The notes beneath the pieces were generated by a model. The model was not told where the DNA came from and did no database searches. It saw only the letters and a list, made by a program, of their open reading frames with translations. A DNA stretch of 37,895 nt from a virus, in the IMG/VR virus record IMGVR_UViG_3300047444_000152, positions 1 to 37,895 of that record; one strand, written 5' to 3'. Within the stretch, counting starts at the first letter, position 1. Each line of letters begins with the position of its first letter. Positions 3,366 through 17,920 of this stretch are shown here, piece by piece. The position numbers and the translations under genes were made by a program.

Positions 3366-5378
3366 TTAGTTGGTCGCGCTCGCCTCAATGTCGAGCGTCA
3401 TCGATACGCCGTTGTTGTTGAAGATCGTTACGGACGTGGCAGACAGCGCCGTAATCCAAATGCCCGACGTGATGTTCCCGCTTGGACCGCGCGGAGACCA
3501 CTTAACGGAAGGGTTTGCGCTGAACGGATAAGGAAACGTCCACGTAACGCTGGCGCTTGCATTAACCGTCTGAGACGTGGTTTGTCGGCGGTTGTTGACG
3601 TGCGATGTTCCGCCCGCGTTATGGATCGCAAGATCTACGTCGTCATTCGCGTTCGGCACGCCGACGATCGAAGCAGACGTTGCGTTGTAGCAGTTGCCTC
3701 GCACTCGGTTGTTACCACCGTTGTAGTTCGTGAACGCGATGATGTTGTTTTCCTGCGCGATGAACTTACAATCGATATCGTTATCCGCGATGTAATCGCC
3801 CGCTGCGCTACCCATGATGATCCCGGACACCACCGGACGACCGGCAGAAGGGCCGTCCAAGACACCGCGAATCACATTGAGCGTTGCCGTCCTCCCCATG
3901 TAGATATTTACGCCATTCCACGCGGCGAAGTAGCGGCACGAATCACTGAAGATATTGCGCTGGCTGAAGATGCCGACGTTAGCGGCATAACCGCCTTCAA
4001 ACTGGCAATCGATGAACTCGCTTTGCGATCCCGGCTGGAGGTTCAACACGAACTGATGCCGCGCCGAATTCTGCCGGTTCCAGCCGTGCAGGCCGGTGCA
4101 ACGCGCGATGCCGTTGCTATCAAAGTAAAACGCGTCGTACGTGTTGCTTGCAGACTGCCCGGCGTCCACCACGATCACGTTATGAACAACGCTGTCATTC
4201 GGGCCGTTGAACCACCAGCCGCGCTGACCGCACGTGTCGATCTTGATGTTCTCGAAACACCCTTCGACGGTCGACGTATTCCACGCACCGCCACTCGGCG
4301 GATACTCAGTGCGCAGCGCATGACCGAACACGTTGCGGATATAAACATCGCGAATGACCGGGCCGGCGCCAAAGATAACAACACCGTTGCCTGCCGTGTT
4401 GCCTGCGCCCGCATTCCAGTTGCCGTCGATAATCAGGCGTTCGAGTGTGTAGCCATTCACATACGTTGCCGGGTCAGCTTGCCCCCAATTGGCCGTGCTG
4501 TTCGCGCCGTAGATGAAATCCTTATTCGAGCCAACAATCTGCTTAAGCACCGTGCCGGGACGATCGCCAGTCCAATAGCTGCCCGAGTTCACGACGAGTT
4601 GCGATGCCATATACGTGCCGGCCGGGAAATACAGCCTTGCGCCAACCGAGATCGCGTAGGTATCGGCCGCAGTAATTGCCGTCGTGTCGTCCGTCGCGCC
4701 GTCACCCTTGGCGCCGAAGTCCTTAACGCTTACAACATCCTGAAATTTATTCTTAACGGTGCGCGCGACAGACGAGGCTGCGCCGTGGCGATATGACAGC
4801 TTTGCGCCGTCGATCGCAGCATTGCTCGCCACCGTTGAGTTGTACACGGCGCCGTCGCTCGGCGTGCCAACCGATACCGTCGCGCCGATCTTGACCGTTA
4901 CCTTAGTCACACCGACAGGGATCGGCGATGAGAAAGTAAGCGTTGAGCCGCTAAGAGACGACTGGCTATCGTCCTGGAACGCGCCATCGAAGAACACCCA
5001 AAGGTTGTTCGCCGACAGAGGCGGAACGGAGAGCGTCAGGCTTGCCGTAACGCCCGGCGTGAAGTCGGTGCCAGCAACGAACGTATTGTCCGAAATGTTG
5101 CCGAGCAGACCCGCGCTGGAGTCCTTTACAAGCTGGTCCCAAAGTGTATTGCCTGCCGCATCCTTCAGAACTTGGCGAAATGTACCAGTGCCCCAAATAA
5201 TCGCTTGCCCGCGGCTATCCAACTGGATAGGATTTGTGTTCAGGGTAGCGCCGTTCGGGTCTTGATACGTGGGGACGGGGTTCGTCGTACCGGGCGCGTA
5301 GAAATACACCGAACCATTGGCGAGCGGAGCGCCGTTCTGGTCGAAGAATTGCTGCTTTCCGTTCTGCAGAAGCTGCAT
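3366..5378 (-). CDS. Tailspike with pectate-lyase-like beta-helix
   Basis: A 670-residue receptor-binding or depolymerase spike. Residues 1-85 form a typical spike head-binding domain (QNGKQQFFDQNGAPLANGSV, LDSRGQAIIWG). Residues 97-165 are a small beta domain shared with the gene at 11525-12130. From about 218 comes the pectate-lyase-3 signature VKDFGAKGDGATDDT and a long right-handed beta-helix region. Start chosen at 5378 because GAGG lies upstream. Upstream codons would run through a terminator. It sits at the end of the ejection gene block, as gene 9 does in P22. It probably cuts or binds host surface polysaccharide. Catalytic residues cannot be assigned by eye. Confidence 0.9.
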   Translation of the reverse strand: MQLLQNGKQQFFDQNGAPLANGSVYFYAPGTTNPVPTYQDPNGATLNTNPIQLDSRGQAIIWGTGTFRQVLKDAAGNTLWDQLVKDSSAGLLGNISDNTFVAGTDFTPGVTASLTLSVPPLSANNLWVFFDGAFQDDSQSSLSGSTLTFSSPIPVGVTKVTVKIGATVSVGTPSDGAVYNSTVASNAAIDGAKLSYRHGAASSVARTVKNKFQDVVSVKDFGAKGDGATDDTTAITAADTYAISVGARLYFPAGTYMASQLVVNSGSYWTGDRPGTVLKQIVGSNKDFIYGANSTANWGQADPATYVNGYTLERLIIDGNWNAGAGNTAGNGVVIFGAGPVIRDVYIRNVFGHALRTEYPPSGGAWNTSTVEGCFENIKIDTCGQRGWWFNGPNDSVVHNVIVVDAGQSASNTYDAFYFDSNGIARCTGLHGWNRQNSARHQFVLNLQPGSQSEFIDCQFEGGYAANVGIFSQRNIFSDSCRYFAAWNGVNIYMGRTATLNVIRGVLDGPSAGRPVVSGIIMGSAAGDYIADNDIDCKFIAQENNIIAFTNYNGGNNRVRGNCYNATSASIVGVPNANDDVDLAIHNAGGTSHVNNRRQTTSQTVNASASVTWTFPYPFSANPSVKWSPRGPSGNITSGIWITALSATSVTIFNNNGVSMTLDIEASATN

Positions 5379-5390
5379 GCGTGCCTCAAT

Positions 5391-5414
5391 AAAAAAACCC
5401 CGCACTAGGCGGGG
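5391..5414 (-). terminator. Intrinsic terminator before the tailspike gene
   Basis: Read leftward: CCCCGC, five-base loop, GCGGGG, then seven T. It lies 13 bp before the tailspike start codon, where it would stop transcripts coming from the ejection genes and isolate the tailspike. Confidence 0.88.
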
Positions 5415-9480: not shown

Positions 9481-10320
9481 TTAGACAACAAGTCCGTTTG
9501 CGCCAGCGCCAGCACTGCCCGAAGGAGTCCAGCCGGGAACGCCAGACGATGAGGACGCACCGCCAGCGTTGTTATTCATCAGGCCGGATACGTACTGCAT
9601 ATTTGCGTAGTTGTTCAGCGCACCGCTCAGCGCATTGGCCGTTCCGACCGTTCCGGCCGCTGACGCATTCGCCGAGCCCGTCAGCGTATTTCCAATGCTG
9701 TTCGCCGTAGCAGCGCCGAGCGATCCGGTCGTTGCCGCCGCGTTCTGGCCGTTGCCGACTAACCCTTGCAGGCGGTTGACGTTGTTCGCCGCGACGTTGT
9801 AGTTCGTATTAAACGTGTTTGCGTTCGCGTTGTACGTCTGGAGCGCGCGGTTGTAGACATCGTTATACGTAGAGTCGGCAAGGCCCGTTGCATACGTCGA
9901 CGCGCCCTTGAGTGCCGCGCCAGAAGTGCCAAGCCCGCGAGCAGCCGCGCTGTTCTGCGTCGCCTTCAATCCCTGCTGAAGCGTGAACTGATAGCCAGGC
10001 GTCGCCTGCGCATCTGCCGCTGTCGGCGCGGTGAAATTCCCATACTTCTGTTGAAGAATGTTCGATGAATCAGTACCGTTGATCGTGTACGTTCCGTCGT
10101 CATTCTTCGTGTAGTTGTAGCCCATCGCGGTAAGCAGCGGATTAATCGCTGCATTACCAAGATTCATGTACGGCGCAAGATTATCCTGCGTCGTTTGCCA
10201 TTGAGCAGTCTGAAGATCGGTCGCTTTGTTTGCCGCGCCCGCCTGCTTACCTGCGGCCATATTCGAGGCGACGCCGCCGATTACTGCGCCGCCGACGATT
10301 GCGGTTGCTATCCCTGACAT
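9481..10320 (-). CDS. Ejection protein, P22 gp7-like
   Basis: A 279-residue protein with a hydrophobic glycine-rich N-terminus (GIATAIVGGAVIGGVASNMAA), then the DNA-transfer pattern of QWQTTQDNLAPYMNLGNAA and PGYQFTLQQGLKATQNSAAARG. The latter motif is widespread in gp7-type proteins. The C-terminus is Gly/Ser/Asn-rich and low in complexity. It is the first of three consecutive ejection genes in transcription order, as in P22. Its first 13 bp overlap the cupin-SET gene. Confidence 0.8.
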   Translation of the reverse strand: MSGIATAIVGGAVIGGVASNMAAGKQAGAANKATDLQTAQWQTTQDNLAPYMNLGNAAINPLLTAMGYNYTKNDDGTYTINGTDSSNILQQKYGNFTAPTAADAQATPGYQFTLQQGLKATQNSAAARGLGTSGAALKGASTYATGLADSTYNDVYNRALQTYNANANTFNTNYNVAANNVNRLQGLVGNGQNAAATTGSLGAATANSIGNTLTGSANASAAGTVGTANALSGALNNYANMQYVSGLMNNNAGGASSSSGVPGWTPSGSAGAGANGLVV

Positions 10321-11186
10321 GCGAGCCTCTTAGATTGAATGCCAGACAGCGCAAGCGCCTGGCGGTAGTCGATCGTTATTTCTTCGCCGTCTTGCCCGCC
10401 GTGACAGCCAGCTATGCGCTTCACTGCGACAAGGTTGATGTCGCCGTTCGGCAGAAGCACCATTTCAGCGTTAGGCGACTTCGAGTGATTCGTAAAACGG
10501 CCGGCCGGCGTGCGCTTACCATCGATGCGCGCAGGCGCTATCAATTCGCCCTCACCTATTGGCGCTGTCGCGAACAGGCCAGATCCTTCGATCGCTGATG
10601 CGCCCGTTTTGACGCGCCATGCGCCGAACGGGAACGCGCACTGATCGGCTTCGTTCTCGGACTGCGAACGCGCCGTCGCATGATCGAAGCCGGTTTCGTT
10701 CAGCATCGCCCGATAGTCTTCGCGATCACCCTCATGCGCCGCCGAACGCTCTGCCGATTGCGCTGCCTGATGCGCGCTGAACTCGTCGCTTTTCACGAGA
10801 AACATGCGTTCTAGCTTTTCGATGTTCGTCTCGTCAGTCGCATAGATGTTCTGCCAGACAACGTCTTCTAGAACGTATCCGGCTTTCTTTCCCGGCTTGC
10901 CAACGAACATCATCGGTGCGACGAGATCAGTTGTCGTGCCGTCATCGTTGAGCATCCGAACGCGGCCCCTCAGAAACACATTCAAATGCGCGAATCGCTG
11001 CGCATGCCCGATAGCGAGGATGCCGGCCGGCATATGGACTTCGCGAACGTAAAGGCCGGGGCCAAAGTGATGAATGACCGAGCATTCCGCCTGCGGCAGT
11101 TGAAGCATCGAGCTTTCCGCCTTCGCAATGTCGCGCGACTGCAACGCGGTGATGATCTCGTGATGCGCCTCAACAAGTTCACTCAT
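10308..11186 (-). CDS. Cupin-SET domain fusion protein (putative protein methyltransferase)
   Basis: A 292-residue protein with two recognisable halves. Residues about 33-130 look like a cupin beta-barrel: a Gly/Pro turn pattern PAGILAIGHAQRFAHLNVFLRG with His61 and His67. Residues about 188-275 carry SET-domain signatures: GSGLFA (201-206, cofactor loop), NHSKSPN (233-239) and GEEITIDY (267-274). SET domains use S-adenosylmethionine to methylate lysines. A charged helical linker joins the halves. It is translationally coupled to its neighbours and sits in the tail/ejection block, so it may be in the virion or modify virion or host proteins. Target and activity are unknown. Confidence 0.8.
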   Translation of the reverse strand: MSELVEAHHEIITALQSRDIAKAESSMLQLPQAECSVIHHFGPGLYVREVHMPAGILAIGHAQRFAHLNVFLRGRVRMLNDDGTTTDLVAPMMFVGKPGKKAGYVLEDVVWQNIYATDETNIEKLERMFLVKSDEFSAHQAAQSAERSAAHEGDREDYRAMLNETGFDHATARSQSENEADQCAFPFGAWRVKTGASAIEGSGLFATAPIGEGELIAPARIDGKRTPAGRFTNHSKSPNAEMVLLPNGDINLVAVKRIAGCHGGQDGEEITIDYRQALALSGIQSKRLACQG

Positions 11187-11521
11187 GCACTATCCTTTAC
11201 GTATTCGATGCCGCTGATACTGATCGAGCAGCCGTTACCGTCCGCGTAAAGCTGCGTGCCTGGCTCCAGCTTGTGATTCACCAGCTCGGGGAACTGCGCC
11301 GTCGCGCCGGCCGCGACGTTCTTAGCCGCAATGCGCGTCGTGCCATCAGCAACACGGCCACTAGGCACCTTGAACACTTCGATCGTCACCACGCCCGCAG
11401 TCGGGTTGTTCGCGCTCGCGGCCTGAATCGACGCAGACGTTGCGGACGGCGCGGTATAAATGCTGGCGACCATCGCGGTCAGCGAAGCGCCCTTGACCAT
11501 TTCTTTGTAAGTCGTCGTCAT
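11183..11521 (-). CDS. Hypothetical virion-associated beta protein (112 aa)
   Basis: A compact, beta-rich protein with alternating hydrophobic residues (VVTIEVFKVPSG; GTQLYADGNG), starting MTTTYKEMVKGASLTAMVASIYTAP. Proteins of this type occur next to tail genes of many phages, often without a name. The ATGA overlap with the cupin-SET gene means coupled translation. It occupies roughly the place of P22 gp14. Function is not known. Confidence 0.65.
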   Translation of the reverse strand: MTTTYKEMVKGASLTAMVASIYTAPSATSASIQAASANNPTAGVVTIEVFKVPSGRVADGTTRIAAKNVAAGATAQFPELVNHKLEPGTQLYADGNGCSISISGIEYVKDSA

Positions 11522-11524
11522 GCA

Positions 11525-12130
11525 TTACCCTCGTGCGTAGACGTTTTGCGTTCCGACCGGAATCGCTGATGTGAAGGTGATCGTGTTGCCGCTGATCGTG
11601 TATTGGTCGCTCGCCTGGAACGTGCCGTCGAAATGCACCAGCACCGCCGCCTTGCTCGCGTAAGCCTTCGAGAGCGTCAGGCTCGTCGTCGAGCCGGGGG
11701 TAAAGTGCGTTCCAGACACGAACTTGTCTTCAACCGTCGCGGATAGGCCATCCAGCTTCGCCTTGTCCGCGCTCGACATAAAGCCGGCAGCGGAACTCGT
11801 CGCCAGCGCGTGCAAGTCAGGCGCATCCTGAATGCCGTGCGTTGGCACGAACGATTCAGGCTCAGGATCACGCAGCGCAGTAGCAAGCGCAGAGAGCGCA
11901 GCTTCAACGTCAGAGATTTGGTGCGACAGTTCCGGCGCGTATGCTGGCGCGACGAGCGATTGAAGCAGTTGCAATACTTCGCCTACGCTTTCTGAGCCGG
12001 TAGAACCTGATGCGCCGCCCGTTCGGTTAAACAACGCGAGCAATAGCTGAAACCATGCCATCGAAACCCGCCCCGTCTTCGGGTCGGTCATCGGCGCGCC
12101 AACATCGGGGAAGTTCGCCTGATTGTTCAT
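11525..12130 (-). CDS. Tail protein in the needle (gp26) position
   Basis: A 201-residue protein. The start at 12130 gives an ATGA overlap with the upstream gene. Residues 7-35 (FPDVGAPMTDPKTGRVS.AWFQLLLALF) are a common N-terminal module of phage tail and attachment proteins. Residues 40-130 are helical and Ala/Ser-rich, compatible with a coiled-coil shaft. Residues 135-200 form a beta domain closely matching part of the tailspike. A trimeric needle or plug closing the portal is plausible from position, but the sequence does not prove it. Confidence 0.6.
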   Translation of the reverse strand: MNNQANFPDVGAPMTDPKTGRVSMAWFQLLLALFNRTGGASGSTGSESVGEVLQLLQSLVAPAYAPELSHQISDVEAALSALATALRDPEPESFVPTHGIQDAPDLHALATSSAAGFMSSADKAKLDGLSATVEDKFVSGTHFTPGSTTSLTLSKAYASKAAVLVHFDGTFQASDQYTISGNTITFTSAIPVGTQNVYARG

Positions 12131-13551
12131 GTGCGCGCTCGCGTTACGTCGACCCATGCGCCGTTAAGCGCGGTCTTGACTGGCGCAGACCATGACAGTT
12201 CGAACACCCTATCGCGCGCATACCCAAGACGCTGATACTGAATCGACGTCAGGTATTCGCCAGCCTTCCCGAGCGATCCAGCGACAGCGTTGCCCCACGA
12301 TGCGCCGCGGTCATCTGACCAACGCAAGCGAATCTCAGGCGGGGCGCTGTCGTCAGGCAGGCCGTTGCCGACTTCCATGTCGGCCACAAACTGGCGGAAC
12401 AAAACGCGGTTTCCGTCTGCTCCGCTGATGTGCGGGAAGCTGCGGACGCGCAGAATCGGGTTTCCGTTGTCCGTATAGGCGTTCGGATCGAGCGCATAGA
12501 CGTTTCCAGTCTGCCAGTCACCAACAAGATTTCGGCCGGCGTTGAATGAATGGCAGTTCATGCGATGGCGACTCAGAGAGCCATCCGCTTCCAGATAGGC
12601 GCGCTGATGCCATTGCCCGGTGGCCGCATCGAAGCACCAAGTCTTGTTCGCGGCCGGGAACGTCAGCACATAGAACGCGTGACCGCCTTGCAGGTACGAA
12701 AAGCCGATCGCGTCGTCTATCCGGCTGTAGGTTAGAAACTCAGCTTCCAGCGCGTGCGTCGAGATGCGCTCTGCCGCGTAGTTCTTGCCAGCGAACACGA
12801 TGCCCTGCCCTTGCAGATCCTTGCCAAGCCAGAACAGCGCGAGATCGATCTTTGCAACCGAGTGTTTCGCCGCGCAACCATGCTCGATGTAGACGCCAGG
12901 CATGCGGCCGAACGTGAAATCCGATGCGCCGGTGTTGTACCAAACTTCAGTCGTCTGCTCGCCAAACAGCCATATTTCTCGGTGCATGACCGCGAGCGTC
13001 ACAAGGTTGTCTGAATACGTCGATTTGCTGGCAATATCGAGCGAATCGAACGATATGTCTTGGTACTTCGAGATATAGAAATGCTGTGTGCCGGGCTGAT
13101 TAAAGACGAAGTAACCGTCGACGTAATCAACCGTATCCGATCCGTAGTACGCGGAGTCGGTGACGGGCGACAGCTTGTTCTTCGCCAGATCGATCGTGAA
13201 GCCATACGTCGAGCCGTCAACGATGAACACGCTGGTTCCGTTGTCCTTCATGGCGACAGGGCCAGAATCCGTTGTCAACTGACCGAGCAGGGTATAAACG
13301 CCCTTCGCATCGACGGAATAGATCGACTCACTGACGATGTCATATCGATTGCCGTTCGACGCGGTATATATAGCGCGACATTCGCCGGCTTCAGGCGGCG
13401 TCGACACGAGCGTCAGGCCGGGCGTCGGGTAATACGTGAATGGCGCCGTGGCGTCTTGCGGGTTTTGCTCGCCATATAGATTGACTTGGCGCTGAGCATC
13501 CGCAATCAGGCTTTTCGCGGCGTATGCACCGCCAGTCAGAGGAATCCGCAT
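12127..13551 (-). CDS. Packaged-DNA stabilisation protein, P22 gp10-like
   Basis: A 474-residue, beta-rich protein beginning RIPLTGGAYAAKSLIADAQRQVNLYGE, the recognisable start of gp10-type tail hub proteins. Repeated blade-like segments (MHREIWLFGEQTTEVWYNTG; FWLGKDLQGQG) fit a beta-propeller. P22 gp10 joins gp4 to the tail needle and tailspikes and keeps packaged DNA inside. Length agrees with P22 gp10 (about 472). It follows the gp4-like gene with a one-base TGATG overlap. Confidence 0.9.
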   Translation of the reverse strand: MRIPLTGGAYAAKSLIADAQRQVNLYGEQNPQDATAPFTYYPTPGLTLVSTPPEAGECRAIYTASNGNRYDIVSESIYSVDAKGVYTLLGQLTTDSGPVAMKDNGTSVFIVDGSTYGFTIDLAKNKLSPVTDSAYYGSDTVDYVDGYFVFNQPGTQHFYISKYQDISFDSLDIASKSTYSDNLVTLAVMHREIWLFGEQTTEVWYNTGASDFTFGRMPGVYIEHGCAAKHSVAKIDLALFWLGKDLQGQGIVFAGKNYAAERISTHALEAEFLTYSRIDDAIGFSYLQGGHAFYVLTFPAANKTWCFDAATGQWHQRAYLEADGSLSRHRMNCHSFNAGRNLVGDWQTGNVYALDPNAYTDNGNPILRVRSFPHISGADGNRVLFRQFVADMEVGNGLPDDSAPPEIRLRWSDDRGASWGNAVAGSLGKAGEYLTSIQYQRLGYARDRVFELSWSAPVKTALNGAWVDVTRART

Positions 13552-14291
13552 CAGTAATTAGAGCCGCTGTAGATGTTGTAACGCTGCTTCGAGCCGAGGC
13601 CGCGCGGCATCGTCATGGACGGAATCTGCGAGTTCATGCGCTTCACAACACGCTTGGCATTCAGCGCGAGGCCGACCAGCGATCGTTGCGGATCAAGCTG
13701 GTACGACGGCGCGAGATACAGCCCGAGGTTGTAGCGAATGGCTGCCATGTATTCAGGCGGCAGGTTGACGACTTGCGCCGGCGCCGTGAACTGCGGAAGC
13801 GCCTCCATCGTGACGATGTGAAGCTGAAACGTGCTGTCCGGGATCGGGTAATACGTAAGGTTCCCGAGCGGGAAAGCCGGGTCGTAATAGGCCCACGCAG
13901 GGAACGATTGCAGCCCCTTCAACGCCAGGCGCGAATAGTCCTCCATCGATTCGATAATCCGAACCGGATAATCGATCGGCGTCGAGCTGCCCGCGTTGAG
14001 CCGCGCATATGCTGCGTTGATCTTGATCGGCCGCTGAACGTTGAAATCGCCGCCAGTGCCGACCGTGTACGTCTGCGCTCCGGTCGATTGAATCGCCGTG
14101 TCGACAAGGTGATAAACCGAAAGACGCTCGCCCTGCCACTGACCGAGCATCATATTCAGCGTAGCGAGCGCATCGGCGGTATCTTCAGCGCTTGCTGCCT
14201 GCCCGATACCAAGCGCGCCAATGTCTTTCAAGGCGAGCGTAATCAAGTCGAGCGCGGTAGTCGCGCCGACCTGCTGGATTGTGATTGACAT
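13551..14291 (-). CDS. Head-tail adaptor, P22 gp4-like
   Basis: A 246-residue protein with LDLITLALKDIGALGIGQAASAEDTADALATLNMMLGQW, the conserved opening of gp4-type tail accessory factors, then a Tyr/Pro-rich middle and a basic C-terminus (KRVVKRMNSQIP). The adaptor forms a ring under the portal and starts tail assembly. P22 gp4 is shorter (166 residues) and can also cut peptidoglycan. No catalytic motif is evident here. The gene directly precedes the gp10-like gene. Confidence 0.85.
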   Translation of the reverse strand: MSITIQQVGATTALDLITLALKDIGALGIGQAASAEDTADALATLNMMLGQWQGERLSVYHLVDTAIQSTGAQTYTVGTGGDFNVQRPIKINAAYARLNAGSSTPIDYPVRIIESMEDYSRLALKGLQSFPAWAYYDPAFPLGNLTYYPIPDSTFQLHIVTMEALPQFTAPAQVVNLPPEYMAAIRYNLGLYLAPSYQLDPQRSLVGLALNAKRVVKRMNSQIPSMTMPRGLGSKQRYNIYSGSNY

Positions 14292-14331: not shown

Positions 14332-16323
14332 TCAGGCAAGCGTGAGGCTTGCACTCCGAACCACGCCGTCTGAACCTTTGACTTTGATGGTCAATTGCGT
14401 ATCGCTGGTAAGTTGGAACGACATGCTCCCGTTTGCGCTTGGCGTTACCGATGCGGGCGGCGTTATCTCGATGTTTCGGCTATAGACGTTCGCCCATCGA
14501 TACGATGACTGGCCTAGCGAGTAGGTGTTATCGGCACCTGGGCGCACGGTGTTCTGCGCAAGATTGGTTCGCAGCATGATGGTCGAGCCGATCATCATGT
14601 CGAGCGAAGCAGAACCCGCCGAATACTGGAGCGATGCGGCATTATTGGCCGCAGGCGTTGCGAACAGCAGCGCCGAATAGCCTGTCGAACTCGTTTCGAG
14701 TGTCACGCCCGCGCTCGAACTACCTTCAACGAGTAGGCCGGGAAACTTGGGCGCAAGAGTCGATCCGGTATCGGATTCGTGCACATGCAGGCGAGCACGA
14801 ACCAACTCTGGAAGGATGTTCACCCCGGCAAATCCTTTCGAAAAATCACCAGAAACCAGCGGAGCTTTCGATGTGCTTTTGTCGTTGGCGATGATGAGCT
14901 TGGCGCTCAAGGCGGTCGGATGCGAGTTGCCCGCGTTGTGACCAATAATCACCGAATCATTGACGACGTTGACGCCACCAGCCGCATAAGCACCGATGAT
15001 CGTGGTGTTGATCGCGGCCTGCGATTCGCGCCCCGACGCCTTCCCGACGAAAACCGCGTTTTGTGCATCGAGACAGTTCCGGCCGGCTTCATCACCGACC
15101 GCGGTGTTGTAATCGCCGAAGATCATGTTGCCGAGCGCGAGCGCACCTACTGCGGTGTTGTAGGTGCCCGCATACGTATTGCTGCCAGCCTGATTACCGA
15201 CGAACGTATTGCGAATGCCGGTGACGAGGTGATTGCCGGCGTCGCGGCCGACTGCCACCGTGTAGGCGTTCTGCTCTGGATCAGTCGAGTAGCCCGTGAA
15301 GGCTGCGATTCGCGCTCCGATCCCCGGAAAGAGCGTCTCCAGTCCGTTCAGATTCCACCCAGCCTCGCCGGGCAGGTATGGATTGTTTGAAGGCTTGCGC
15401 CAGAAGTCATGTTTGTATGTGATGACCCAATTCGCATCAGGTGCGCCATACCATGCAAGCGCCTCCGACCCAAGTGCTGTAACTCGATGGACATTTCCGG
15501 CATACGCCATCGTATCGCCGCCGAAGGCGTCAATGTATTGCCATTCGAGAGGCGCGCTGCCAACCCAATTCCCGTAAGCACACACGTTCTGAATGTGCTT
15601 CGTGTAGTCTTTGAGTTTGCTTCCTTGGGAGAAAATCGTGTTGTACGAACTTCCGTCAAGCCCCGGTCCATAGCGCGTCGGATAGGTCTGCCCCTGAAAC
15701 TCGCGCTGATAGGTGGATGGCGCAAAAAAGATGCTTTCGCGCGCAGGGTTATAACTGAGCACCGCACCGCCAGACTGAATGCCGCCCGATGTGATTCGGC
15801 CAGGCCCATGCACATCGTAGTCGGGAGCGGCTGCGCCGACAGAAAAGGAGCCTGCCGGAAGATATGCGTCACCGGCCGTCTGCGCCGAGACGATGGCCGC
15901 CGTATCGTCGGTCGTGCCGTCGCCCTTCGCTCCGAGGCCCCTGACGTTCGCGGAAATCCACTGCGCAATCTTCGCGATAGTCGTTTGTGCGATTGATCCA
16001 GACTGCTTGATATTGGCGCTTTCCGTGCCATCGAGCGCCGCAGCAGCCGGAATATTTGCGCTAGAACCAGACGAGTCGAGCGCAATTCCAGAGACAGTTC
16101 GCGTCACATGGCTAGTCGCGCTGATGACGAGCGAGTAGTTACCATCGGCAGCGTAAAACGAGAACTGACCGTTAGCGCCTGCTTTGATCGGATTCGCGGC
16201 CACGGTCACGCCGTTGTCGCTGTAGATCGTGGCCTGTGCGCCGGCCGCCGTCAGAACGCGAATGCTTGCGCCTGCAACGGGCGTTCCGTTGTCGTGCGTT
16301 ACGCTGTCTTGGTATTGCTGCAT
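14332..16323 (-). CDS. Second receptor-binding fibre (663 aa) with YadA-like head repeats
   Basis: An extra fibre or spike gene placed between the coat and gp4-like genes rather than with the tailspike. Residues 1-75 look like a carboxypeptidase-regulatory-like beta fold (GTPVAGASIRVLTAAG). Around 130 lies a pectate-lyase-3 style VRGLGAKGDGTTDDT. Roughly residues 370-470 contain repeats of the NTAVGxxAxG type (NTFVGNQAG, NTAVGALALG, NTAVGDEAG), as in trimeric YadA-like heads. The end has SLGQSSYRWANVYS, common in fibre tips. Likely a trimer binding a host surface target. There is no self-cleaving chaperone domain. Confidence 0.82.
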   Translation of the reverse strand: MQQYQDSVTHDNGTPVAGASIRVLTAAGAQATIYSDNGVTVAANPIKAGANGQFSFYAADGNYSLVISATSHVTRTVSGIALDSSGSSANIPAAAALDGTESANIKQSGSIAQTTIAKIAQWISANVRGLGAKGDGTTDDTAAIVSAQTAGDAYLPAGSFSVGAAAPDYDVHGPGRITSGGIQSGGAVLSYNPARESIFFAPSTYQREFQGQTYPTRYGPGLDGSSYNTIFSQGSKLKDYTKHIQNVCAYGNWVGSAPLEWQYIDAFGGDTMAYAGNVHRVTALGSEALAWYGAPDANWVITYKHDFWRKPSNNPYLPGEAGWNLNGLETLFPGIGARIAAFTGYSTDPEQNAYTVAVGRDAGNHLVTGIRNTFVGNQAGSNTYAGTYNTAVGALALGNMIFGDYNTAVGDEAGRNCLDAQNAVFVGKASGRESQAAINTTIIGAYAAGGVNVVNDSVIIGHNAGNSHPTALSAKLIIANDKSTSKAPLVSGDFSKGFAGVNILPELVRARLHVHESDTGSTLAPKFPGLLVEGSSSAGVTLETSSTGYSALLFATPAANNAASLQYSAGSASLDMMIGSTIMLRTNLAQNTVRPGADNTYSLGQSSYRWANVYSRNIEITPPASVTPSANGSMSFQLTSDTQLTIKVKGSDGVVRSASLTLA

Positions 16324-16711: not shown

Positions 16712-17920
16712 TCAGCGGACGATACGGCAGGCCAGTTCCGGGTAGATCGGAGCGTAGCCATACAGCACGTCAATACGGCAAGGCACCGTGTCCGTGCCGA
16801 TCGCGTACTGGCGCGAGATACGCATCGAAATGCCCTTGTGCATGCGACGTGCGCCCCATGCACCGTACTGCGACACGTCTTCCAAGTCAGCGGTCACGAG
16901 TGCGAAAGCATCCTTGTGATACGCGAGGTTCGCGCTGTACTGCGTCGACGGAGCAACGTCCCACGTCACGACAGCAGCGTTCGCGGGACCAGCCGAAACC
17001 GTCTGGTACTGCTGGTTCGATGCCGCGGTGTTGATCGGCGGGAAGATCGAGAGCGTCGCGTTGCCCGAACCGTCAGCCGTAGCCGGCGCGGTCACGGTGA
17101 ACTGACGGAGAACGCCGGTCGTCTGGCGGTTCTGCGGGTTCACGCCGTACACGCCAGCGATGTAGAACGTGTCACCCTTCGCCACCGTTGCGGCAGCGCC
17201 GAGGCCGGTAACAGTCAGCGTCGATCCGGTTTGGCCAGCGCCGGAAACGGTGCCGTTCGTGCGCGTGCCAGACGTGAACACGTTCACGTTCTGATCCATG
17301 CCGATATCGAAGCCGAGGCCGGACGGCGAGAAGATGCCCGACTCGTACTGCGCGCCGATCTTGTTCGACGGGTTGAACAGGCCAGCGGCAGCCTTGACCA
17401 TCGAGCCGTTCGTCGCCGGATCCCAAACAACAGTACGCTGACCATCGCGCGGGGTCGCTTCGTTGTCCAGCTTCGTGCCGGCATCGAGCAGAACCTTGAT
17501 ATCGTTCGGAACCGAGCCGACCGTACCAACGTTGTTTGCGACGTTTGCAGCCAGCGCCAGACCGTCGAAGTCGATCTTGTTGGCGATGGTCGCCATTGCC
17601 GGCTTGATGTAGCGGTCAGCGAACTCGTCGACAACCAGCGTCAGTTCTTGCGAGCTGAACGTAAAGTCGACGTGGAACTGCGTCGTCAGGCTGACAGGCA
17701 CCGACGATTCGTTCACGTTTTCGAGGTTCAGGTTCGGGCCGGTCGTACCGACGAAGCGGTTCGGCTTGCGCGCGTTGACGGTCGAGCCGATCTTCGCGCC
17801 GCTGACGGCGAATTCCTTGCTGTATTCGCGGTTGATGCGCGACGAGAACGTGAGGTTGTTCTCCAAGATCATCAGCGATTCGTCGAGGATCTTGGTCGGG
17901 GTAAGAAGCGTATTTGCCAT
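16712..17920 (-). CDS. Major capsid protein (P22 coat-like)
   Basis: A 402-residue protein of the P22 coat type (HK97-related fold with an inserted domain). It begins MANTLLTPTKILDESLMILENNLTF and continues NREYSKEFAVSGAKIGSTVNARKP, both typical of this family. The central Gly/Thr/Asn-rich region (about residues 215-300) corresponds to the inserted beta domain. Length is close to P22 gp5 (430). It is preceded by the scaffold gene and followed by a strong terminator, which fits its need for high expression. Confidence 0.93.
   Translation of the reverse strand: MANTLLTPTKILDESLMILENNLTFSSRINREYSKEFAVSGAKIGSTVNARKPNRFVGTTGPNLNLENVNESSVPVSLTTQFHVDFTFSSQELTLVVDEFADRYIKPAMATIANKIDFDGLALAANVANNVGTVGSVPNDIKVLLDAGTKLDNEATPRDGQRTVVWDPATNGSMVKAAAGLFNPSNKIGAQYESGIFSPSGLGFDIGMDQNVNVFTSGTRTNGTVSGAGQTGSTLTVTGLGAAATVAKGDTFYIAGVYGVNPQNRQTTGVLRQFTVTAPATADGSGNATLSIFPPINTAASNQQYQTVSAGPANAAVVTWDVAPSTQYSANLAYHKDAFALVTADLEDVSQYGAWGARRMHKGISMRISRQYAIGTDTVPCRIDVLYGYAPIYPELACRIVR

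Follow-up and report, generated by a model that had tools for sequence, protein, structure and literature searches.

A cupin–SET protein encoded directly before the first ejection-protein gene of a phage

Introduction

The closest described counterpart of the SET domain reported here is vSET (A612L) of the algal virus PBCV-1, a stand-alone 119-aa histone methyltransferase acting on H3K27 that combines a minimal SET fold with GxG, NHSxPN and ExTxDY motifs. Known SET enzymes of bacteria and giant viruses target basic nucleic-acid-binding proteins. For SET proteins of phage tails, the literature searched yielded only a 'SET domain protein (ORF62)' of Stenotrophomonas phage Ps15, mentioned without being studied, and two further matches proved to be immunoglobulin 'I-set/C2-set' text and were set aside. 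By sequence, the protein described below belongs to the same cupin–SET family as PHROG 34170, and in fold and size it resembles entries in BFVD from uncultured Caudovirales named 'SET domain containing protein' (e.g., A0A6J5PTS6, 263 aa). Both kinds of entry are automatic annotations, for which the literature searched gives no function, context or mechanism.

A second set of relevant systems is defined by gene position. In T7 (gene order 12-13-14) and P22 (10-26-14-7), the slot immediately ahead of the gene for the first ejection protein is held by gp13 (PF11090) and gp14 (DUF2824), respectively. T7 gp13 is required for incorporating other proteins into the virion (PMC5592923), and a link to GNAT acetyltransferases has been proposed for gp13, but not for gp14 (PMC6775973). 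The same genomic slot also harbours SET-less cupins of PHROG 12032 and PHROG 24280, homologous to the cupin studied here and labelled 'short tail fiber' and 'tail fiber adhesin'.

Here we describe a cupin–SET gene in a 37,895-nucleotide stretch of DNA of a short-tailed phage (IMG/VR record IMGVR_UViG_3300047444_000152, positions 1 to 37,895; hereafter the window). Because a 68%-identical cupin–SET protein (L087) lies within a 369-kb Paraburkholderia MAG contig, the host of the window phage is probably a member of the Burkholderiaceae. Neither the cupin–SET architecture nor the modification slot that it appears to occupy is described in the literature searched.

Results

The gene encodes a cupin fused to a compact SET domain

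A first-pass annotation made from the sequence alone had placed an open reading frame at exactly the position found here, leaving unsaid that it lies on the minus strand (Table 1). Its product matches PHROG 34170 (E 1.4e-98), a family of unknown function, and the Pfam SET match (E = 9e-7) exceeds the gathering cut-off. The structure prediction that the annotation had called for was run in AlphaFold2 with a 48-sequence alignment, producing a model with a mean pLDDT of 92.6 and a pTM of 0.87 that comprises N-terminal helices (residues 2-27), a barrel (36-116), a second helical stretch (122-176) and the strands and helices of a SET domain (188-280). When the model was compared with the PDB in Foldseek, PBCV-1 vSET (3kma) was the first match (E 5e-5, TM 0.65 normalised to vSET), and the SET domains of MLL1, SETD8 and EZH2 followed, interspersed with many cupins; the SET fold is thus assigned by model match, and the strands of residues 36-116, with their numerous cupin matches, form the RmlC-like beta barrel of the cupin superfamily. 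Among viral models the matches were cupin-only phage proteins, one 'SET domain containing protein' from an uncultured phage and giant-virus SET proteins. An alignment profile was needed to reach SET chains in the PDB, as a single-sequence phmmer search of the PDB returned a chance match only. Pfam, the model and Foldseek all bear out the earlier proposal that a cupin and a SET domain share one polypeptide, and we conclude that the cupin–SET protein is real and that its domain family, though known, is here a variant with an unusual location.

Table 1 Features of the cupin–SET gene and its neighbours in the window
Feature	Position	Strand	Basis
Cupin–SET gene	10308..11186	minus	ORF, 292 aa, ATG start; Pfam SET; PHROG 34170
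Cupin (RmlC-like) barrel, residues 36-116	10839..11081	minus	AF2 strands; Foldseek cupins; PHROG 12032 / 24280
Helical linker, residues 122-176	10659..10823	minus	AF2 helices
Compact SET domain, residues 188-280	10347..10625	minus	AF2, Foldseek, alignment
GxG cofactor motif (G201-S-G203)	10578..10586	minus	G201, G203 invariant in 48 sequences
NHSKSPN cofactor/catalytic motif, residues 233-239	10470..10490	minus	N233, H234, P238 invariant
GEEITIDY, residues 267-274, putative catalytic Y274	10365..10388	minus	G267, E269, T271, Y274 invariant
gp7-type DNA ejection protein, next gene	9481..10320	minus	PHROG 598 DNA ejection E 1.8e-26; weak Pfam P22_gp7
Small protein, preceding gene	11183..11521	minus	PHROG 20100, unknown function
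Needle/fibre-like protein	11525..12157	minus	partial PHROG tail fibre matches
Head closure Hc3 (P22 gp10-like)	12127..13551	minus	PHROG 578 E 2.3e-114
Head-tail adaptor (P22 gp4-like / SU10 adaptor)	13551..14291	minus	Pfam SU10_adaptor 1.2e-6, PHROG 637

All three motifs named in the first-pass annotation are present, with GSGLFA at residues 201-206 followed by NHSKSPN and GEEITIDY, and they conform to the GxG, NHSxxPN and ExTxDY signatures of the SET family (PF00856), including the tyrosine. Residues S197, I199, G201, G203, R225, T226, N233, H234, P238, E269, T271 and Y274 are invariant in 48 aligned homologues, and over a range of 38-100% identity no residues of the domain are better conserved than those of the cofactor and tyrosine motifs. 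Because of this invariance and the Pfam score, the motifs are not a chance occurrence, and their loss in homologues, named beforehand as grounds for doubt, is seen in neither close nor distant family members. The SET-I segment, located between SET-N and SET-C, is the length-variable part of SET proteins, and membership in the family does not depend on it. In the window protein a short loop is all that separates GELIAPA from NHS, and the alignment places a short conserved loop around RTPxGR (PARIDGKRTPAGR) at the position of the insert. Membership therefore stands and the domain is a compact variant, which differs from vSET in its shorter SET-I region, its fusion to a cupin and its location in a phage assembly operon.

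In the cupin half, the candidate metal-ligand positions are occupied by Q63, H67, L106 and Y115 and thus include a single histidine, whereas most SET-less cupins of PHROG 12032 and PHROG 24280 have three candidate metal-binding histidines; cupin-only relatives mostly carry them at 63, 67 and 115, where they could form a metal site. SET-bearing cupins mostly have Q/H, H and Y at these three positions, a difference that could reflect clade history and not SET itself. A separate feature of many cupin–SET proteins is a short cysteine tail (ACQG, CLE or CQQ; 10311-10331 in the window). A cysteine falls within the last eight residues of 45 of the 74 distinct tails, compared with an overall cysteine content of 1.5%, and the same type of ending occurs in SET-less cupins of the BA3 clade.

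The SET domain is maintained by purifying selection

Comparison of the window gene with three near relatives (L009, L008 and L010) yielded, where estimable, dN/dS values of 0.02-0.06 for SET, 0.04-0.09 for the cupin part and 0.08-0.16 for the linker, and SET lay below the linker in every pair in which both could be estimated. The SET domain is therefore under purifying selection and maintained. Together with the motifs, this makes lysine methyltransferase activity of the intact-looking domain probable. A non-catalytic SET fold that senses SAM, or that serves a tail or assembly protein only as a structural part, would be consistent with the short loop in place of SET-I, which shapes the substrate groove, with the absent post-SET zinc motif and with the loss of candidate metal ligands from the cupin half. 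We consider it very unlikely, given that the cofactor and tyrosine motifs are the part best conserved over the whole identity range, that SET dN/dS is low, and that the identical motif set is retained where SET is a separate gene.

The gene sits between virion genes, directly before an ejection protein

On the minus strand the genes are transcribed in the order adaptor, Hc3, needle-like protein, small protein, cupin–SET, gp7-type ejection protein. The ATG of cupin–SET overlaps the upstream stop codon by 4 bp (ATGA, 11186-11183) and its 3' end is overlapped by 13 bp by the gp7-type gene, in agreement with the translational coupling to virion genes proposed earlier. The accompanying description of a tail operon can be made more precise, the gene's place being the slot immediately ahead of the first gene for an ejection protein. 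The window further contains a tailspike-like gene (14332-16323) within the head-tail cassette, between the adaptor and coat genes, and a second spike-like gene at 3366-5405.

This placement recurs across the family. By HMM, a gene for a gp7-type ejection protein follows the cupin or cupin–SET gene in 155 of 186 testable cases (87/94 with SET, 68/92 without), and most HMM-negative genes share the same Gly/Ala-rich, MSWxAVG-like N-terminus. In the T7-like Sphaerotilus phage SnaP-R1, the gene after the cupin is a Pfam T7_gp14. The position of cupin–SET matches the T7 gene 13 / P22 gene 14 slot. The likeness to T7 gp13 and P22 gp14, which have no sequence similarity to cupin or SET, is one of slot and not of family membership, and the window protein gave no match to PHROG 308, PHROG 651, PF11090 or PF11039.

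The matches of the cupin to PHROG 12032 ('short tail fiber protein', E 3e-31) and PHROG 24280 ('tail fiber adhesin', E 9e-27), echoed by several record labels, would place the protein among short tail fibres or adhesins and reduce SET to a passenger. We found no source for these labels other than annotation and judge them unsupported. The gene adjoins ejection proteins across P22-like and T7-like phages, at the position that T7 fills with gp13 and P22 with gp14, two proteins that carry no fibre annotation, and the cupins are compact, with lengths of 140-300 aa, all of which renders a fibre role highly implausible.

SET has been gained or lost repeatedly and also occurs as a separate gene

In IMG/VR, relatives of the cupin–SET protein are encoded at 102 or more loci, the best 80 of which all have cupin–SET fusions. 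Among 50,697 phage records the whole protein matches 55, mostly via the cupin alone, and the SET segment matches 10, two of them at E 0.3 only. Cultured phages with SET include Rhodoferax phage P26218 and Pseudoalteromonas phage PH1. Of the first-pass statement that SET domains are mainly eukaryotic and rare in phages, the rarity fits cultured phages; against it stand the IMG/VR loci, and bacterial genomes also carry SET domains. The SET-less cupin is widespread in podoviruses, occurring in Vibrio, Shewanella, Thalassomonas and Dickeya phages as well as in SnaP-R1. Mapped onto a tree of 101 cupins, the presence of SET requires nine changes, with at least 7-8 of them forced by well supported branches, although the count is approximate, as the tree rests on 114 columns and some rows scored as lacking SET (L232, L233) are truncated at contig ends. 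SET has therefore been gained or lost repeatedly. Thalassomonas phage BA3 (without SET) and contig L221 (with SET) are syntenic, with virion genes 47-82% identical, which makes SET a module that an orthologous protein has either acquired or shed. Since close relatives lack it, SET is not strictly required for assembly in general.

The two parts can likewise be encoded by separate genes that overlap, with the cupin first in L100 and SET first in L190 and L192. Two cupin-less proteins retain SET together with the C-terminal part of the same linker, one encoded two genes before an ejection-like gene (L097) and the other with no ejection genes nearby (L099). Such a pattern of fusion, splitting, swapping and loss is expected of two parts sharing a job. 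Elsewhere, a 1,878-aa phage ORF (L109:2126-7759) combines SET with HNH endonuclease and cytidylyltransferase-like domains, and a 290-aa gene without a Pfam family (L016:6399-7268), glycosyltransferase-like by eye and one of a cluster of four, directly precedes a cupin–SET gene.

Repeated gain and loss resembles the behaviour of an accessory, host-related trait, and the gene is grouped with ejection genes in the slot of T7 gp13, which is annotated as an internal virion protein. Cupin–SET could thus be packaged with or beside the ejection proteins, enter the host with the DNA and methylate a host protein early, for instance in defence, transcription or translation. We regard this as unlikely, since no ejection signature is seen in cupin–SET and P22 gp14 is annotated as a head morphogenesis protein, not as an ejected one.

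Unrelated protein-modifying enzymes occupy the same slot

We surveyed the slot in phages with a related Hc3 (Pam1, PfAn1, PAE2, vB_PspP-H6/1, ctn9Y15, PBR31 and L317). A GNAT protein of PHROG 1249 is found in Pam1 (2e-11), separated from the injectosome gene by a needle gene, and in PfAn1 (3e-9; Pfam 0.003), and a weak GNAT match in PAE2 (0.027). The slot holds DUF2824 in vB_PspP-H6/1 and a cupin in ctn9Y15, and GNAT-like motifs were recognised by eye only in PBR31 orf030 and L317 6716-7087. A third enzyme is an aspartyl/asparaginyl beta-hydroxylase (PF05118), which uses 2OG oxygenase chemistry and is unrelated to SET but likewise modifies proteins and swaps with cupin–SET in relatives. In L107, SET, this hydroxylase (Pfam 2e-13) and a cupin precede an ejection-like gene in that order; in PfAn1, a homologue of the L107 hydroxylase (35% identity, E 3e-27), the GNAT gene and the ejection protein directly adjoin; and in podovirus ctXG1253 the hydroxylase stands immediately before the ejection-like gene, where the related ct1fd225, with the two genes following the ejection-like gene 32% and 54% identical, has cupin–SET. 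We therefore conclude that three protein-modifying chemistries (SET, GNAT and hydroxylase) exchange in one place. The rule is not universal, because the annotated records of Pam5 and ctNMl277 contain no such slot gene.

The GNAT calls for the slot genes of P22 (gp14), PBR31, cta1H496, DC33 and L154 come from motif inspection or weak scores. A structure-based GNAT assignment of P22 gp14 was discarded (shallow alignment, model pLDDT 43), and PDB profiles gave no match for PBR31 orf030 or the cta1H496 gene. L154:5547-5990, GNAT-like by eye and directly before a cupin gene, has 2aj6 as its best PDB match (E 0.12). In Xanthomonas phage PBR31, orf028 (L114:8072-8440), annotated as an acetyltransferase, by eye resembles the small protein preceding cupin–SET in the window and not an enzyme, so that its label is probably a misannotation and orf030 the GNAT-like gene. 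In Limnohabitans phage DC33 (L322; 39 kb), a GNAT-like gene comes after a beta-hydroxylase gene, an arrangement like that of podovirus slots, and the phage's classification in the Inoviridae looks wrong. Two genes annotated 'putative terL' (L003:11186-13024 and L321:6280-7516) are by eye P22-type portal-like and likely misannotated.

The late operon location implies late expression, and the stand-alone SET of L099 has no ejection genes nearby. With the basic nucleic-acid-binding targets of bacterial and giant-virus SET enzymes in mind, one could picture a late intracellular enzyme acting on a host protein (e.g., of the nucleoid or translation), with the cupin contributing only dosage or oligomerisation. 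The near-constant adjacency to the ejection gene and the replacement by other enzymes in the slot point instead to a virion-linked role, and we deem a late host-directed enzyme quite unlikely, somewhat more so than an ejected effector.

Candidate methylation sites in virion proteins

Across 77 aligned gp7-type proteins encoded by SET phages, no lysine is invariant, so a fixed gp7 methylation site is not indicated. The largest ejection gene has five homologues, too few for lysine conservation to be informative, and the other virion proteins yielded one adaptor lysine that is shared with SET-less phages, and no clean candidate. The residue at about position 326 of the coat protein (window gene 16712-17920) is lysine in 34/41 SET-plus and 9/31 SET-minus phages, the alternative being mostly arginine, a contrast confounded by relatedness.

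Discussion

Sequence context favours the ejection/virion module as the methylation target. We therefore hypothesise that cupin–SET acts late in morphogenesis as a factor of the DNA-ejection module, a reading to which we assign a probability of roughly 47%. The widespread and conserved cupin barrel would link cupin–SET to the step at which the first ejection protein (gp7/gp14 type) is assembled, and the appended SET domain, a predicted SAM-dependent lysine methyltransferase that appears catalytically competent, would modify a phage protein during assembly, the likeliest substrates being the ejection proteins and neighbouring tail or head proteins. Methylation may then serve the loading or delivery of the ejection proteins.

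On a wider scale, SET would be one of several interchangeable enzymes, with GNAT and the Asp/Asn beta-hydroxylase, in a podovirus slot, an indication that part of the apparatus with which these phages inject their DNA is chemically modified by them. More tentatively, we propose a general modification slot in which unrelated enzymes exchange and through which ejected proteins might be post-translationally modified inside the cell that makes the virions, either as a prerequisite for packaging and genome delivery or as a way to tune them; we hold this to be possible, at odds of clearly less than even. The idea is directly testable, as it predicts methyl-lysine, acetyl-lysine or hydroxy-Asp/Asn on virion proteins.

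How ejection proteins of short-tailed phages are loaded and passed through the narrow tail is an open problem, and a slot that repeatedly holds protein-modifying enzymes, with the chemistry swapped between relatives, bears on the unclear role of T7 gp13 and P22 gp14. This wider pattern is the more interesting claim than the cupin–SET protein by itself. If true, it would mean that phages make use of SET lysine methylation, a chemistry studied mainly on eukaryotic chromatin.
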